From positions 1 through 62,252 of the forward strand of contig JAPPBT010000028.1 in assembly GCA_026702745.1 (NCBI GenBank): 62,252 nt of DNA, given 5' to 3'. This DNA is from Gemmatimonadota bacterium (GTDB lineage Bacteria > JAAXHH01). The translations under genes and the position numbers were made by a program. Shown here piece after piece: positions 1,083-11,002 of the stretch (positions within the stretch are counted from its first letter, which is position 1; every line of letters begins with the position of its first letter). Below the pieces are notes generated by a model, which was given only the letters and a program-made list of their open reading frames with translations, had not been told where the DNA came from and made no database searches.

Positions 1083-3764
1083 ATGATGAACCGAGTCCAC
1101 CCTCGCGCGTTTTCCGCAGTCTGCCTCTTCGCCTTTGGCCTGATCAGCGCCCTCGTCCCCGGAACCGTCCGGGCCCAGGACCTTCCTTTCGCCATGGAGG
1201 TCCGCGTACCCGGCATCGAATCCTACGACCCGGCCATCCCCCGTCCCGAATCGGTCATCGGCCACGTTGTGGGCGAAACGCACACGCGGTCCCACCTGGT
1301 GGCCGACTACTACCGGGCGGTGGCCGAAGGCTCGGACCGCGTCGTGGTACGCCGCCACGGCGCCAGCTACGAGGGACGCCAGCTGTACCACGCCGTGGTG
1401 ACGTCTTCGCCCAACCATGGACGGCTGGAAGAAATCCGCCTGGCCAACCACCGGCTGTCCGACGCGCCCGGCGCGGTGTCCGACGCCATGATCGAGACGA
1501 TGCCCGTCGTCGTCCACATGGGCTACGGAGTGCACGGCAACGAAGCCAGCACCTCCGAAGCGGCCATGCTGGTGCTCTATCACCTGGCCGCGGGCAACGG
1601 ACCGGCCGTGGACGACCTGCTGGACCGCGCCGTGATCATCATGGATCCCAACTACAACCCGGACGGGCGGGACCGTTTCGTCAACTGGGTCAACGCCAAC
1701 CGGGGCCGGGTCGCCACGCGGGACGGCCAGGACCGGGAGCACGCGGAGCCTTGGCCGGGCGGCAGGACCAATCACTACTGGTTCGACCTGAACCGGGACT
1801 GGCTCGTGGCGCAGCACCCTTCATCGCAGGGCCGGGTGGGCCTGTTCCACCACTGGCGCGCCCAGGTGCTGACCGACTTCCACGAAATGGGCAGCAACGC
1901 CACCTATTTCTTCCAGCCCGGCATCCCGAGCCGGAACAACCCGAACACGCCGGAACGGACCTTCGAACTGACGGCGGCGCTCGCGGAGCACCACGCAGAG
2001 TGGCTCGACCGCCATGGTGCACTGTACTACTCCCGGGAGACTTTCGACGACTTCTTCTACGGCAAGGGCTCCACCTTCCCGGACGTGAACGGCGCCATCG
2101 GCATCCTCTTCGAGCAGGCCTCGTCCCGGGCGCTGGAACGGATGACGAACGACGGGGTCCTGACCTACCCCTTCACGATCCGCAACCAGTTCGCCACCTC
2201 CATGTCGACCCTGGCCGGCAGCCTGGCCCTGCGGACGGAGTTGCTCGCCCACCAGCGCGACTTCTACGCATCAGCGCCTGAAATGGCGCGGCGCAACCCC
2301 GTCAAGGCCTATGTCCTCGATCTCGGCGAAACGCGCACGCGCACGCAGGCCCTCCTGCAAATGCTGCTGCGCCACCGCATCCGCGTCTACGAACTCGCGC
2401 GGACCGTGCAGGCCGATCGGACCTTGCTGGCAGGCCGGACCGTGCAGGCCGAGGGGCCCACGGGTTCCAGCGGGCGTACCTTCCGCGCCGGCGAGTCGGT
2501 CATCATCCCCCTGGACCAACCTCAGACTCGATTGATCAAGGCTTCGATGGAGCAGGCCACGACCTTCACGGACTCCCTCTTCTACGACGTCTCGGCGTGG
2601 ACCCTGCCCCTGGCCATGGGCGTTCCGAGCGGTGAACTGCGCAGGTACTCCGACGACCTGGCCGGTGCGGAAATCACCGAAGCCACCTTCGACGGCGGTG
2701 AGCTGACCGGCGGCCACGGGTCCTATGCCTACCTGATGGAATGGAACCGCTACTTCGCACCGCGCGCGCTCTACCGGATCCTGGACGCGGGTCTTCGGCC
2801 CCGGCTGGCCAGGCAGCCCTTTTCGGTGGCCGTCGACGGCCCGGGCGGCCCCGGCGGCCCCGGCAGTACAGAACGGACCTTCGACCGGGGCACGATCATC
2901 ATCCCCGTCGCCCAGCGCGACGCCGCGTCCGCCGTGACCGCCGCGCAGGTGCGGGCGCTGATCGACCGGATCGTGGCGGAAGACCACGTCATCGTCCACG
3001 GCACGGACACGGGACTGACGCCCTCGGGCGGCGACCTGGGCGGTCCGACCTCCCCGGTACTGGTCAAACCGGAGATCGCAGTGCTTTCCGGGCCCGGCAC
3101 CCGGGCCTACGAGGTCGGCGAGACCTGGCACCTGCTGAACGAGCGGTTCGGCATTCCCGTCTCCCTGGTCGACGCCGACGGGTTCGCCGACCTGGACCTG
3201 GACCGTTACACGACACTGGTCATGGTCATGGGCAGCTACGACCTGGATACGGAAGACGTGAACCGGCTCAGGTGGTGGGTGCGGGAGGGCGGCGTCCTCA
3301 TCGCCTGGAAGAGCGCAGCCCGGTGGCTCATCGGCAATGATGTAATCGACGAAGGCCTGAGATCCGCCCGTCCCGATACCGTCGCGATCCCCTACGAGTT
3401 GGTATCGTCCACGCGGGGAGCGCAGCGTATCGGCGGCGCCATATTCGCGGCCGCGATCGACACCACCCACCCGCTGGCCTTCGGTTACGGCGCCCTGGCG
3501 CCGCTCTTCCGCAACCACGAGATCTTCTTCGAACCTTCCGCCACGCCCGGGGCCACGGTGGCCCGGTACACGTCGTCGCCGCTAATGGCCGGCTACATCT
3601 CGCCGAAGCGACACGGCGAACTGGCCGATTCCGCCGCGCTGATCGCCCGAAGGCAAGGCGAGGGCGCCGTCGTGCTCTTCGCCGACAACCCCAATTTTCG
3701 GGCCTTCTGGTACGGCACGAACAGCCTGTTCCTGAACGCCGTCTTCTTTGGGGGGGCGTTCTAA
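1083..3764 (+). CDS. Secreted M14-family zinc carboxypeptidase
   Basis: An 893-residue protein with a Sec signal peptide (hydrophobic residues about 10-30, cleavage near VRAQD). Residues about 50-390 form an M14 metallocarboxypeptidase domain: the HGNE metal-binding motif has His151 and Glu154, and the third ligand is His267 in TDFHEMGS. NYNPDGRDRFVNW is also typical of the family. The C-terminal third (about 660-890) contains a class I glutamine amidotransferase-like fold seen in large bacterial M14 proteins (LSGPGTRAYEVGE, then VMGSYDLDTEDVNRLRWWVREGG). Expected role is trimming of peptides or peptidoglycan-derived peptides in the periplasm or outside the cell. Two adjacent ATGs lie at 1083 and 1086; AGGAAC precedes them. 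The preceding 240 bases form a divergent promoter region shared with the saccharopine dehydrogenase-like gene. Confidence 0.9.
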   Translation: MMNRVHPRAFSAVCLFAFGLISALVPGTVRAQDLPFAMEVRVPGIESYDPAIPRPESVIGHVVGETHTRSHLVADYYRAVAEGSDRVVVRRHGASYEGRQLYHAVVTSSPNHGRLEEIRLANHRLSDAPGAVSDAMIETMPVVVHMGYGVHGNEASTSEAAMLVLYHLAAGNGPAVDDLLDRAVIIMDPNYNPDGRDRFVNWVNANRGRVATRDGQDREHAEPWPGGRTNHYWFDLNRDWLVAQHPSSQGRVGLFHHWRAQVLTDFHEMGSNATYFFQPGIPSRNNPNTPERTFELTAALAEHHAEWLDRHGALYYSRETFDDFFYGKGSTFPDVNGAIGILFEQASSRALERMTNDGVLTYPFTIRNQFATSMSTLAGSLALRTELLAHQRDFYASAPEMARRNPVKAYVLDLGETRTRTQALLQMLLRHRIRVYELARTVQADRTLLAGRTVQAEGPTGSSGRTFRAGESVIIPLDQPQTRLIKASMEQATTFTDSLFYDVSAWTLPLAMGVPSGELRRYSDDLAGAEITEATFDGGELTGGHGSYAYLMEWNRYFAPRALYRILDAGLRPRLARQPFSVAVDGPGGPGGPGSTERTFDRGTIIIPVAQRDAASAVTAAQVRALIDRIVAEDHVIVHGTDTGLTPSGGDLGGPTSPVLVKPEIAVLSGPGTRAYEVGETWHLLNERFGIPVSLVDADGFADLDLDRYTTLVMVMGSYDLDTEDVNRLRWWVREGGVLIAWKSAARWLIGNDVIDEGLRSARPDTVAIPYELVSSTRGAQRIGGAIFAAAIDTTHPLAFGYGALAPLFRNHEIFFEPSATPGATVARYTSSPLMAGYISPKRHGELADSAALIARRQGEGAVVLFADNPNFRAFWYGTNSLFLNAVFFGGAF

Positions 3765-6778: not shown

Positions 6779-8014
6779 TCAGTCCCGCAAGGCGAGACTC
6801 TCTCCGCTGAGCGTCACGCCCAGCGGCTCGATGACCACCTGGCGGGGGCCATCTTCCACTACGCCGGCGACCCAGGCGCGGATGCCTTGCGCTTCGGCAC
6901 AGGCCACGGCCGCGTCCCCGTCCTCCGGGCGGACGAATAGGGCGAAGCCAGCGCCCATGTTGAGACTGCCGTAGGCCTCTTCCGCCGTCTGCCGGGTCTC
7001 CTCCACCATGAACCGCAGGACCTCGGGAACGGGGGGCACTTCGGTAATGCGGTAGGTGAACCGGCCGGGGTGGCGCATGATCTTTCGCCAGCCGTGGCCG
7101 GTGATGTTGGCGATGTAGCGCAGGCCGATGCCGGCCTCGAAGACCGCCTCGGTGACGGGAGGATAAAGCACGGTGGGGTCGAGCAGGGCCTCGCCGTACG
7201 TCCGGCCGCCGGGCATGATCGTGGCGTACCCCGCCGGCAGGCGCTCGGACAGCCTGCGCGCGAGGGTGAGGCCGTTGGCGTGGATGCCGCTGCTTTCCAG
7301 GAGGACGATCGCGTCGCCGGCCGCCAGGTCCTCGCCCAGGGTGAGTTGCGACTTCGGCCGGATGATGCCCACGCAGGAGGCGGCCAGGTCGATGGCGCCT
7401 TCCTCCACCACGCCGGTCAGACAGGGCGTCTCGCCGCCGCCCCAGGCCACGCCCAGGACGTCGCAGGCGGCCTTCCAGCCGTCGACCAGGTCGTTCATGC
7501 GGTCGGTGTCGTCGAACCAGTCCGACGAACCGGAGGCCCAGTAGGCGTGGATGCTCAGGGGCCGCGCGCCCACGGTGACGAGGTCGTTGACGGCCGTGGC
7601 GATGGTGTCCTGCGCGATGTGGTCGTACCAGGTCCGTCCCGACGCCTTCGATACCGGCGGCCCCGACACCCGCGATACCCCCGATTCCACCTGCACCTTC
7701 CGCATCGCGTCCGCCACCAGGGCCTTGGTGCCCAGGCATTCGGTGATGGAGGCGAGATAGGCGTCGCCGATGTCCACCACGTAGGCCGACTCCCCGCGGC
7801 TGGCCGCCACTTCGCGGACACCGGTGTGCGCACCCGCGCCCTCGAGGTTGGCCCCCGTGGCCCGCGCCGCCTGCTGGGCGAGGACCTTCAAGGGATCGAT
7901 CCGGTCGTAATCCACGCCGGAATCCTCGTAGGTCAGCCGGTCACCGGCCGGCGGACCGCCAGGCGCGCCGCTTCCTGCTGACGCACGGCTTCCGTTCGGT
8001 TTTTCGTCGGCCAT
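6779..8014 (-). CDS. purM: Phosphoribosylformylglycinamidine cyclo-ligase (AIR synthase)
   Basis: 411 residues of the PurM/AIR synthase family, which closes FGAM to 5-aminoimidazole ribotide in purine synthesis (step five, ATP-dependent, cytosolic). LTYEDSGVDYDRIDPLK is the usual start of the fold, followed by GTKALVADAM, HDxIxxD-like DHIAQDTIATAVNDLVTVGARPLSIHAYW, WGGGETPCLTGVV (phosphate loop) and SSGIHANGLTLAR. NITGHGWRKIMRHP and GSLNMGAGFALFV match the C-terminal domain. A 30-residue Gly/Ser/Pro-rich N-terminal extension is unusual. AAGGAAGGG precedes the ATG. It lies 21 bases downstream of the PLP enzyme gene, so they are probably one transcript, with no obvious pathway link. Confidence 0.9.
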   Translation of the reverse strand: MADEKPNGSRASAGSGAPGGPPAGDRLTYEDSGVDYDRIDPLKVLAQQAARATGANLEGAGAHTGVREVAASRGESAYVVDIGDAYLASITECLGTKALVADAMRKVQVESGVSRVSGPPVSKASGRTWYDHIAQDTIATAVNDLVTVGARPLSIHAYWASGSSDWFDDTDRMNDLVDGWKAACDVLGVAWGGGETPCLTGVVEEGAIDLAASCVGIIRPKSQLTLGEDLAAGDAIVLLESSGIHANGLTLARRLSERLPAGYATIMPGGRTYGEALLDPTVLYPPVTEAVFEAGIGLRYIANITGHGWRKIMRHPGRFTYRITEVPPVPEVLRFMVEETRQTAEEAYGSLNMGAGFALFVRPEDGDAAVACAEAQGIRAWVAGVVEDGPRQVVIEPLGVTLSGESLALRD

Positions 8015-8035: not shown

Positions 8036-9559
8036 TCAGCTTCCCGTGGTGAACAGTTCCCGCAGCCTGCGGGCCACGAGTTCGACTTCGCCTTCCTCGA
8101 GCTGCAGCGTGCGCGGACCCGGTCCATCGTAGATGATCTTGGGGTCGCCCGCCCGCAACAGCCGGCCCACGTCTTCCCGGGACAGGGGAATCACCGCCTC
8201 GTCCCAGAGCAGTTCCACGTCGTGGTAACCGTGGGTGTTGAGCTCGTAGCGGGCTTCCAGGCCGTCGATGCCCTGCAGCTGATCCGCCAGCCAGCGGGCC
8301 TTCCCGTTCCAGGCGGCGATCTCCTCGTCCTCGTCGAGGGCCACGTACCGCTCCAGCGCGGCGACCAGGCCCACGATCTCCTCCTTGCCGACCTTCAGCC
8401 CTCTACCGAGGCCGTTATTCGGCGCGTTCTGCATCCGGGCGGCCTCGATCAGGTCGGCGCGACCCGCGAGGATCCCCGTCGAGTTCGGGCCGCGAATCCC
8501 CTTGCCGCCGCTGACCACGACCAGGTCGGCGCCGGCTTCCAGGTATTTGGTCAGGTTCTCCTTGGGCGGCAGGTTGGACGCCAGGTCGATCATCACCGGC
8601 ACGCCCCTGCGCCGGCCGATCTCGATGATCTCCAGGGGCATGAGCGTCTCGGGGTCGTGTTCCTGCCGGTGGCGCACGGGGAAGGGCGGGACGCCCCGCG
8701 CCTGATGCTCGATATAGGCCAGGCCCACGAGCAGCGCCGTCCGTTCCGTGATGGCCGCCTCGTACTCCATGCGGGTGCCGGCCTCCACCAGCTTCATGCC
8801 CGCCAGGCCGAAGACGTTGTCGTAGAAGAATCGATGAGCCGTCTGGAACAGGCATTCCACCTTCGGCCAGGTTGGATTGGGCAGGAGCTCCATCCGTTCC
8901 TCGTCTGGCCCGGTCAACACGCCCGCCGCGCCCACCAGCATCGACGCAAATGCGCCGGACGAGACCAGGGCGGCCTCCGCCCCCATGATCTCGGCGATGC
9001 GCCGTCCCGCCGCGTCGTGCAGCTCCGCCATGTCCACGAAGTAGCGGTTGGCCTCGGCCATGGCCTCCATCACCTCGGCCGGCATGCGTGAGCCACCCAT
9101 GCTCGAGAGGTGTTCGTGGGCGCCCACATGGGGTCGCACACCGAGCAACCGGGTGTAGACGTTGTCCCTCAGGTCGGCCGCAATGGCATCGGGGTCGCCG
9201 CCAGCGCCGGCCAAATCGCCGCCCGACCCACCGGCACCGCCCGGGGCCACCTGGGCATCACCCGAACCGCCCGAACCGCTGTCGCCGCCCGCACCCGCAT
9301 CTCCCGATGAGCCATCCATCTCGCCCGGACTACCGCAACCGGACGCCGCAATTCCCGCCGCACCGGCCGCGCCGGCCATGCCGGCCAGGGCGCTCACCCT
9401 GATAAACGTGCGCCGGTTCACCCGGTCCAACTTGTCCAGTGCGGCCGGCCAGTCCACCTGGTCCAGCCGGTCCAGCTGGTTAAGCCCGTCCAGCCCGCTT
9501 TCCGCTGCCGCCGATTCCGGCTCATCACCGCGCTGCTCTTTCCGGATTTCCTCGTCCAT
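8036..9559 (-). CDS. Tat-exported SelA/ammonia-lyase-like PLP enzyme, probable lipoprotein
   Basis: 507 residues. The C-terminal 390 residues form a fold-type I PLP enzyme close to the SelA/D-glucosaminate-6-phosphate ammonia-lyase group: AHEHLSSMGGSRMPAEVMEAM, ALVSSGAFASM, and the PLP lysine in SGGKGIRGPNSTGI (Lys353). Such enzymes catalyse beta-elimination or related chemistry on amino acids or sugar amino acids. The N-terminus is odd: after a run of LDxLDxVD-like repeats comes NRRTFIRVSALAGMAGAAG and then AASGC, a Tat twin-arginine signal with a lipobox, followed by a Gly/Ser-rich linker of about 60 residues. The enzyme would therefore be folded and exported to the envelope, unusual for this family. 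GGGAG precedes ATG 9559. Substrate not assignable. Confidence 0.8.
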   Translation of the reverse strand: MDEEIRKEQRGDEPESAAAESGLDGLNQLDRLDQVDWPAALDKLDRVNRRTFIRVSALAGMAGAAGAAGIAASGCGSPGEMDGSSGDAGAGGDSGSGGSGDAQVAPGGAGGSGGDLAGAGGDPDAIAADLRDNVYTRLLGVRPHVGAHEHLSSMGGSRMPAEVMEAMAEANRYFVDMAELHDAAGRRIAEIMGAEAALVSSGAFASMLVGAAGVLTGPDEERMELLPNPTWPKVECLFQTAHRFFYDNVFGLAGMKLVEAGTRMEYEAAITERTALLVGLAYIEHQARGVPPFPVRHRQEHDPETLMPLEIIEIGRRRGVPVMIDLASNLPPKENLTKYLEAGADLVVVSGGKGIRGPNSTGILAGRADLIEAARMQNAPNNGLGRGLKVGKEEIVGLVAALERYVALDEDEEIAAWNGKARWLADQLQGIDGLEARYELNTHGYHDVELLWDEAVIPLSREDVGRLLRAGDPKIIYDGPGPRTLQLEEGEVELVARRLRELFTTGS

Positions 9560-9572
9560 GTGTCTGCGCTCC

Positions 9573-10007
9573 CTACGACCGTTTCTTCGCGGCCATCAGG
9601 TTCTCCGTCCGACTGGCCGCCTGCGCCTCGATCTCCTTGCGCGTCCACCGCTTGCCCTTGTTCATGCCCCCGCACGTCTCTGCTTCCCGTTCCCACCGGC
9701 GTTTCGACTTCAGGATGTCCTGCCAGAAGGGGTAGCTGCTGCACTGGGACGGCCGTACCGGATAGATGGAACACCCCTGGTCGTAGAATACGCAGGGACC
9801 GTCATCCGGAGAGACCAGGGAGACGTAGCCGTCGATCTCTTCCGTGTACTTTTCCAGGAAGGTTTCGAACGGCAGGTCCAGGTACTCGGCGATGCGCCGG
9901 AACTCTTTCTCGCTGCCGTAGATGAATCCACCGGGAAAGGTGCAGCAGTGGCCGCACCCGTGGCAGGAGAACTGCAATCCGTCGTGCCAGAACTTGCCTT
10001 TAGCCAT
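9573..10007 (-). CDS. YkgJ-family cysteine-cluster protein
   Basis: 144 residues with the defining Cys cluster FSCHGCGHCC (Cys15, 18, 21, 22), a downstream PDDGPCVFYDQGCSIYPVRPSQCSSYPFW segment and a final Cys in AETCGGMNKG. This matches the YkgJ/CxxCxxCC family, thought to bind zinc or an Fe-S cluster; the biochemical role is unknown. Its ATG begins two bases after the stop of the small gene at 10010-10285, which suggests translational coupling since no strong Shine-Dalgarno is visible. The PLP enzyme starts 13 bases downstream. Confidence 0.85.
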   Translation of the reverse strand: MAKGKFWHDGLQFSCHGCGHCCTFPGGFIYGSEKEFRRIAEYLDLPFETFLEKYTEEIDGYVSLVSPDDGPCVFYDQGCSIYPVRPSQCSSYPFWQDILKSKRRWEREAETCGGMNKGKRWTRKEIEAQAASRTENLMAAKKRS

Positions 10008-10009
10008 GG

Positions 10010-10285
10010 CTATTGATCGTTATTGAAAGAGATTCCTTGTTCCTTCGCCTTCGCGTCGACGATTCGTTCTATCTTGTCCAGCACGCGCCTATGATCGCTC
10101 ACCAGTGACCTGTGATCGGCCATCAGTGATTTGTATTCCTGATCAATCTCTGAATCGTTGGGTGGGAGTTTCTTTCTAGGTTCTTTCATATCATACACCG
10201 CCTTTCCGGCTTGTATGGCTTCCTTCGCCAAATTAAAAAACGTTGATAAGAGTTCGATCAGTTCCAATTCGCCGAGCCCGGGCAT
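10010..10285 (-). CDS. Small hypothetical coiled-coil protein
   Basis: 91 residues, hydrophilic apart from an amphipathic N-terminal helix (LELIELLSTFFNLAKEAIQ), with a likely coil in the second half (YKSLMADHRSLVSDHRRVLDKIERIV, where LMADHRS and LVSDHRR repeat). No signal peptide. It abuts the YkgJ gene and probably shares its transcript. No family recognised. The ribosome site before ATG 10285 is weak. Confidence 0.6.
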   Translation of the reverse strand: MPGLGELELIELLSTFFNLAKEAIQAGKAVYDMKEPRKKLPPNDSEIDQEYKSLMADHRSLVSDHRRVLDKIERIVDAKAKEQGISFNNDQ

Positions 10286-10447
10286 AGGATCGTGTATGGC
10301 TTAGCCAGACAGCAGCCTGAATCCATTGCTGTGTATAAGGCATTAGTCGGCGCATTGGCGGATTCACTCGTATCACCAACGTAAATTTCGCTCTATCGAT
10401 CACCACAGCCGGTGTGGCAGAACTCCCGGACTTTCCAGTCGAATCCC

Positions 10448-11002
10448 CTACTCGCCCACCGTGGCGATCACCTCGACTTCGCACCGCGCGCCGAAGGCCA
10501 GGCCGCTGCCGGCAAAGGCGCTGCGGGCCGGCTTGTCGCCGGGGAAGTACGTGACGTACACCTCGTTGAAGGCGGGCCATTCGGCGATGTCCGCCAGCAT
10601 GACCGTGGCCTTGATCACCCGGTCCATGGAGGATCCGTTGGCTTCCAGGACCGTCCTGATGTTCTCCATGGTCTGTCGGACCTCGCCCTGGATGCCCCCC
10701 GGCGCCAGGTCCGTCGTTCCGGGGATGTTTCCGATCTGGCCGGAGAGGAACAGCAGGTGCCCCACGCGCACGGCGTCCGAGAAGGGCAGGTTCATGCTCG
10801 CCGTGGTCTCCGAGGTGAGATAGACGGCCTCGGGGGTAGGCGGGGGCGCAGCAGGAGGCGCCGATGCGTCCTGTGCCGTCTCCGTGCATCCTGCGGTTGC
10901 CAGCAAGAGCACAACAGGCGTCAGAAATAGCGCAATGGGTGCCCACACAGGTCCGGAGTTCCTCCGCAACGGCGGAACGGCAACGCGTTGTCTTCCAGTC
11001 AT
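10448..11002 (-). CDS. RidA/YjgF-family lipoprotein
   Basis: 184 residues from ATG 11002 (CAGGAG about seven bases upstream); a longer reading from 11068 is less likely. A signal peptide ends in ATAGC (Cys39), so this is a predicted lipoprotein with a Pro/Ala linker. The rest is a complete RidA domain: DAVRVGHLLFLSGQIG, LEANGSSMDRVIKATVMLADI, and PARSAFAG with the Arg that binds the substrate carboxylate, then EVEVIA. RidA hydrolyses reactive enamines and imines made by PLP enzymes and is normally cytosolic, so an envelope form is notable beside the exported PLP enzyme 900 bases downstream. Confidence 0.85.
   Translation of the reverse strand: MTGRQRVAVPPLRRNSGPVWAPIALFLTPVVLLLATAGCTETAQDASAPPAAPPPTPEAVYLTSETTASMNLPFSDAVRVGHLLFLSGQIGNIPGTTDLAPGGIQGEVRQTMENIRTVLEANGSSMDRVIKATVMLADIAEWPAFNEVYVTYFPGDKPARSAFAGSGLAFGARCEVEVIATVGE

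Follow-up and report, generated by a model that had tools for sequence, protein, structure and literature searches.

A short row of genes on the minus strand of a 62,252-nucleotide contig from a Gemmatimonadota bacterium (JAPPBT010000028.1, assembly GCA_026702745.1; the whole contig is called the window here) encodes two signal-bearing proteins, a pyridoxal 5'-phosphate (PLP) enzyme related to SelA and DgaE, and a lipoprotein of the RidA family. In this study, we report that the PLP enzyme comes from a clade of SelA/DgaE/Cap15-type, fold-type-I enzymes bearing signals for the twin-arginine translocation (Tat) system, and that both proteins are predicted, with high confidence, to be exported. 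We further propose, with a probability of roughly 0.4, that a membrane-anchored PLP enzyme would act outside the cytoplasm on unphosphorylated amino acids or amino-sugar acids, and that RidA would be its working partner, hydrolysing the enamine or imine that is released.

Rid proteins have been investigated in the cytosol, where they guard against reactive enamines. A comparative survey of the family from 2015 makes no mention of exported members, and the words 'signal' and 'periplasm' do not occur in it (PMC4433059). Tat-exported PLP enzymes, for example PvdN, and Rid proteins are known categories; PMC9537276, PMC4433059 and PMC6206403 describe neither the two in combination nor Rid export on this scale. 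If exported Rids and PLP lyases cooperate, reactive nitrogen intermediates would be a problem of the envelope too, and abundant uncultured bacteria of soil, lakes and the sea would carry out extracytoplasmic amine chemistry. The operon of this genus would offer a compact, testable case of an exported Rid with a PLP enzyme.

Export signals of the PLP enzyme and of RidA

The N-terminal region of the PLP enzyme, ...NRRTFIRVSALAGMAGAAGAAGIAASGC, contains a twin arginine (residues 49-50), a hydrophobic stretch and a lipobox-like Cys in the motif AASGC, and is followed by a Gly/Ser linker. This pattern (S/N-R-R-x-F, hydrophobic stretch, lipobox Cys) is kept in relatives. Comparison with orthologues from 11 congeners and two further genera of the same family revealed that the twin arginine is invariant in 15/15 sequences (one of them a paralogue) from three genera with identities of 52-95%. 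The lipobox-type Cys was found in 12/12 genus members and in genome G013, and is missing from G012; a canonical Leu at position -3 is lacking here, and the more usual LPGC occurs in some congeners. The assembly, which consists of 102 contigs, encodes one TatC.

A scan of 84,980 species identified 549 encoded relatives of the PLP enzyme. Among the best 80, which were examined for signals, 69 carried a Tat motif together with a hydrophobic stretch; some of the other 11 were clipped by contig ends, and the rest were mostly 39%-identical paralogues. Signals were called in our scripts with a simple hydrophobicity rule rather than SignalP. Because the Tat state required 2 changes on a tree of 61 PLP sequences, against a mean of 11.1 after shuffling, export is best read as an old inherited trait of this clade, which comprises Acidobacteriota, Gemmatimonadota, Latescibacterota and single genomes elsewhere; the tree was a quick one, supported by Shimodaira-Hasegawa-like approximate likelihood ratio test (SH-aLRT) values alone, and several of its branches are long. 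Predicted export of the PLP enzyme is thus not peculiar to this locus.

RidA begins with ...PIALFLTPVVLLLATAGC, a Sec-type signal with the lipobox TAGC and a Pro/Ala linker, and its Rid domain starts at about residue 62. The domain matched PF01042 at 96.5 bits (cut-off 27.3) and RidA structures in the PDB, and scored 100.6 bits against TIGR00004 (cut-off 106.25). The N-termini of RidA from congeners can barely be aligned, and all complete ones end their hydrophobic stretch with a lipobox Cys; a canonical Leu at -3 is again absent here, and the congeners show FVAGC and SLAGC. Among the best RidA matches in unrelated genomes, 2/16 had a hydrophobic stretch. A second RidA of this genome (G000:C25:134085-134408, L002) also has an N-terminal hydrophobic stretch ahead of its Rid domain (NIVVSRWLFAGLTALIVAAVSLGYTVLPAQS).

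These data agree with an earlier note on this DNA, made from the sequence alone, which had assigned a Tat signal to the PLP enzyme and a Sec lipoprotein signal to RidA; both recur in the assessable congeners. The lipoboxes that it described hold as far as the conserved Cys is concerned, and not in the canonical Leu. Its statement that both families are normally cytosolic fails for these lineages, given the Tat signals of the PLP homologues and the abundance of exported RidAs. By hand count, approximately 73/121 Gemmatimonadota hold a RidA scoring >100 bits to that of this locus, and a signal was present at 27/30 such loci. A signal-like stretch was also seen in 36 of 71 Rid open reading frames (ORFs) sampled from 22 genomes carrying a Tat-PLP enzyme, a sample partly picked for long frames, so that 36/71 is not a frequency. 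Export of RidA is therefore, on present predictions, not peculiar to this locus, and the same phyla hold many putatively exported RidAs. Proteins with three Rid domains, of approximately 370-530 codons and with an N-terminal signal-like stretch, were found in Acidobacteriota and Gemmatimonadota (L206-L209, L212-L217); their three-domain state rests on a home-made Rid profile, and exported triple Rids appear to be common in both phyla.

Likely chemistry and comparison with known systems

Against Pfam and NCBIfam profiles, the PLP enzyme scored 37.9 bits with PF03841 (SelA; cut-off 22.8) and stayed well under every equivalog cut-off, with 150.8 bits against TIGR01437 (DgaE-family ammonia lyase; cut-off 385) and 133.5 bits against NF047797 (cut-off 600). 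It also scored far too low for SelA proper, L-seryl-tRNA(Sec) selenium transferase, matching part of TIGR00474 at 40.9 bits (cut-off 267.9). The AlphaFold (AF2) model has a well-predicted core, with a per-residue confidence (pLDDT) >90 over 331 residues.

DgaE (PDB 7lc0/7lce) belongs to the same fold family, and in alignment to 7lc0 the Schiff-base Lys353 and the carboxylate-binding Arg367 of the PLP enzyme correspond to K213 and R226. DgaE is cytosolic, and its other active-site residues are not matched: the sugar-phosphate arginines Arg301, Arg332 and Arg346 align with D447, a gap and L485 (with R483 as a possible shifted counterpart), and His162/His163 align with I283/E284, with a loop insert of 12-16 residues that contains no conserved His. 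On these residues and the family cut-offs, a DgaE function was rejected, and the protein is probably not a glucosaminate-6-phosphate lyase. Since the phosphate-binding arginines and His162/163 are absent, a phosphorylated sugar acid is an unlikely substrate, and it is plausible on chemical grounds that an enamine would be released; in the H163A variant of DgaE turnover is intact and the enamine escapes (PMC9529869). That the substrate would be an unphosphorylated amino acid or amino-sugar acid is somewhat the better bet. The amino-sugar elimination suggested in the earlier note is possible, although not in its known form.

The mechanism that we favour may be outlined as follows. The PLP enzyme would bind its PLP and fold in the cytoplasm before being exported by Tat and lipid-anchored, by analogy with PvdN and PtaA, and RidA would be exported unfolded through Sec and anchored likewise. 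At the periplasm or cell surface the PLP enzyme would meet an alpha-amino acid or amino-sugar acid that is unphosphorylated and probably carries a beta-hydroxy group, supplied from outside or by wall turnover. Deamination would proceed by alpha,beta-elimination, an O2-dependent reaction like that of Cap15 being the less likely route. Without the proton-donor His of DgaE the enzyme could let the enamine go. RidA would tautomerise this enamine and hydrolyse it to ammonia and a keto acid in time to keep it from harming PLP enzymes nearby or reacting with components of the envelope.

Several lines of evidence argue for this reading. Export signals are kept in both genes, TatC is present, and export is a trait of the PLP clade. 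Lys353 and Arg367 are retained, and the DgaE residues whose loss would permit enamine release are missing. RidA has a complete Rid domain and retains the Arg and Glu found in Rids that hydrolyse imines (PMC4433059), the Arg in PARS (Arg105-equivalent) and the Glu in EVEVIA (EIEVIA in G013) being kept in 12/12 sequences; it differs from the known family in being a predicted exported lipoprotein. Tight operon spacing, adjacency within the genus and co-occurrence, described below, add to this, as does the precedent of the chitin oxidation cluster, in which the PLP deaminase OngC and the RidA-family protein OngD are both required for use of GlcNAc1A (PMC9537276). In that cluster, too, a PLP deaminase of an amino-sugar acid is encoded with an essential RidA-family protein. 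In contrast to the present proteins, OngB and OngC are predicted to be cytoplasmic, OngD is a 127-aa RidA-domain protein, OngC is described as D-amino-acid-deaminase-like rather than SelA-like, and the cluster includes transporters, a hexosaminidase and a kinase that are absent from this locus.

PvdN and PtaA of pseudomonads are precedents for the export step, as PLP enzymes that are Tat-exported in the folded state and active in the periplasm (PMC6206403). Both tailor pyoverdine, and PvdN has been solved as an aminotransferase-type protein, whereas the PLP enzyme described here matches SelA/DgaE models and not PvdN.

Partners or neighbours

RidA adjoins the YkgJ-PLP-purM genes in 10/10 genus genomes, this one included, whose contig spans both genes whole. 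G006 is an eleventh adjacent case with RidA clipped by the contig end, and the contig of G009 stops before RidA. RidA genes generally cluster with PLP-enzyme genes (PMC4433059). At the genome level, a RidA like that of the window was found in 10/11 Gemmatimonadota with a Tat-PLP enzyme and in 63/110 of the others (Fisher p = 0.048, uncorrected for kinship), a weak co-occurrence.

A number of observations weigh against a working partnership. In G013, of the same family, RidA-YkgJ lies on one contig and PLP-purM on another, and G012 encodes the PLP enzyme but no RidA orthologue, so that the adjacency, as far as gene order tells, is lineage-restricted and broken in the nearest other genera. A search for a neighbouring RidA found one within 8 kb at 1/74 PLP loci outside the genus, many of them shortened by contig ends; as a 2 Mb genome holds about 8 Rids, a single hit among 74 loci is, by a rough estimate, close to what chance would give. 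That hit, L094 (Longimicrobiales), was rejected as an independent recurrence, since its RidA is convergent and not an orthologue, and near-identical sister PLP genes have no such RidA next to them; recurrence of the adjacency in unrelated lineages was thus not found among these loci. The whole 20-kb block around the row is syntenic in the genus, for which reason synteny alone is weak evidence. The excess in Gemmatimonadota carries no correction for phylogeny, and among 198 Acidobacteriota a window-like RidA was absent from 2/3 of those with a Tat-PLP enzyme (overlap 1/3). Inspection of 20 Gemmatimonadota RidA loci showed no recurring PLP gene beside them, and His-163 is likewise absent in PLP relatives that have no RidA neighbour. 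The pairing of an imine producer with its scavenger, as put forward in the earlier note, is accordingly weakly supported, the adjacency being limited to one genus and one non-orthologous case and most exported RidAs being found without this PLP enzyme.

The same observations would be expected if the two proteins were neighbours and not partners, an explanation to which we give somewhat less than even odds. Two independently widespread exported families would have become adjacent in one genus through a single rearrangement, kept by slow change of gene order, and the envelope RidAs would have a general protective or other role. This fits the frequency of exported RidAs without this PLP enzyme, the rarity of RidA near Tat-PLP genes, the missing linkage in sister genera, the large syntenic blocks of the genus and the fact that the row ends with purM, a housekeeping gene of no related function; it sits less well with the tight spacing in several congeners, the known clustering of RidA genes with genes for PLP enzymes and the mild excess of co-occurrence in Gemmatimonadota.

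An unlikely explanation is that the PLP enzyme is a periplasmic, O2-dependent oxygenase or decarboxylase like Cap15 or, functionally, PvdN, giving an imine or peroxide by-product in place of an elimination enamine, with or without the help of RidA. Foldseek against the PDB ranked Cap15 (8t7j), the capuramycin PLP monooxygenase-decarboxylase, first in structure as well as sequence (32% identity, TMt 0.86), ahead of DgaE 7lc0 (27%) and then SelA. Cap15 and PvdN are PLP enzymes that use O2, PvdN is Tat-exported (PMC6206403), and 11 homologue loci have PvdN-related class-V enzymes, most of them bearing Tat-like signals, in the vicinity of the SelA-like gene. An identity of 32% is nevertheless too low to fix the reaction type, and in the phylogeny Cap15 falls outside the exported clade, joined to DgaE through long branches; Cap15 is moreover a Streptomyces biosynthetic enzyme with another gene context, and its aligned part has no export signal. 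It is slightly less probable still that the RidA lipoprotein serves as a periplasmic chaperone or ligand-binding protein and not as an imine hydrolase; its compartment is unlike that of the known substrates, but throughout the genus its catalytic Arg and Glu are strictly conserved. The possibility that the signals are artefacts of mis-called starts, raised in the earlier note, was rejected with near certainty, as nothing was found to support it and the twin arginine, the RidA signals of all complete congeners and the lipobox Cys are conserved across divergent relatives with variable N-termini.

Gene row and wider neighbourhood

The features of the row, which runs RidA-(orf91)-YkgJ-PLP-purM, and the related loci are listed in the table below.

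Table. Genes of the row in the window and loci of class-V PLP enzymes in other genomes
Feature	Position	Strand	Remarks
RidA-family lipoprotein gene	10448-11002	-	184 aa; PF01042 match
orf91, 91-codon ORF between RidA and YkgJ genes	10010-10285	-	no Pfam match
YkgJ-like CxxCxxCC putative metal-binding protein	9573-10007	-	PF03692, 46.9 bits; no export signal seen
SelA/DgaE-like PLP enzyme	8036-9559	-	507 aa; PF03841 and TIGR01437 matches
purM-like AIR synthase	6779-8014	-	TIGR00878, 163.9 bits, below cut-off 236
Class-V PLP enzyme loci	L093:539-1756; L095, L098, L113, L121-L130, L138		several putatively exported PLP enzymes per neighbourhood

Two genes, orf91 and the YkgJ-like gene, separate RidA from the PLP gene in this genome, and a YkgJ gene always sits between the two within the genus. 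From ORF coordinates, the YkgJ gene ends 13 bp ahead of the PLP gene here, and purM starts 21 bp downstream of it; the gap from RidA to the next gene is at least 162 bp in this genome and in G010, G006, G002, G011 and G003. In G005 the spacing of RidA-YkgJ-PLP-PurM is 15/13/20 bp, and in G008 it is 25/2/13/22 bp along the row, so that in some congeners the genes from RidA to purM are predicted to form one tight operon. The ORF orf91 (see also L073:3908-4546) is found in some congeners, is missing from G005 and occurs as two tandem copies in G004, a distribution like that of an insert that is mobile or expendable. Scans for promoters and terminators gave nothing above chance. The purM-like gene is the sole convincing purM of the genome and hence a housekeeping gene, and a pathway read from the neighbours was rejected. 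A viral or mobile origin was rejected, since scanning IMG/VR yielded no encoded relative.

Other genes recur near the homologues. In Acidobacteriota loci (L135-L143, L147, L154 and L155, within L135-L155), an exported amidohydrolase of the PRK09237/EF_0837 type adjoins the Tat-PLP gene; four relatives of it are encoded in this genome, the closest of which (47%, C101) starts without an export signal. Class-V PLP enzymes with a weak likeness to PvdN, most copies having a Tat-like N-terminus, lie near the SelA-like gene in 11 Gemmatimonadales/Bryobacterales loci. Both kinds of neighbour point to amino-acid chemistry outside the cytoplasm. It is conceivable, though doubtful, that Acidobacteriota, Gemmatimonadota and Latescibacterota share an undescribed extracytoplasmic deamination of amino acids or amino-sugar acids, in which the Tat-PLP clade would act with exported single or triple Rids that detoxify enamines and imines in the envelope. 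As part of the same reading, exported PvdN-like class-V enzymes or amidohydrolases beside the Tat-PLP gene would contribute in some lineages.

The taxonomic labels of the genus are inconsistent, as two public assemblies (L082, L086) are titled Gemmatimonadetes and the others Latescibacterota. Finally, members of an M14-like carboxypeptidase family, represented here at 1083-3764, lie at most 8 kb from the Tat-PLP gene in Latescibacterota and Vicinamibacteria-like genomes (L135-L143).
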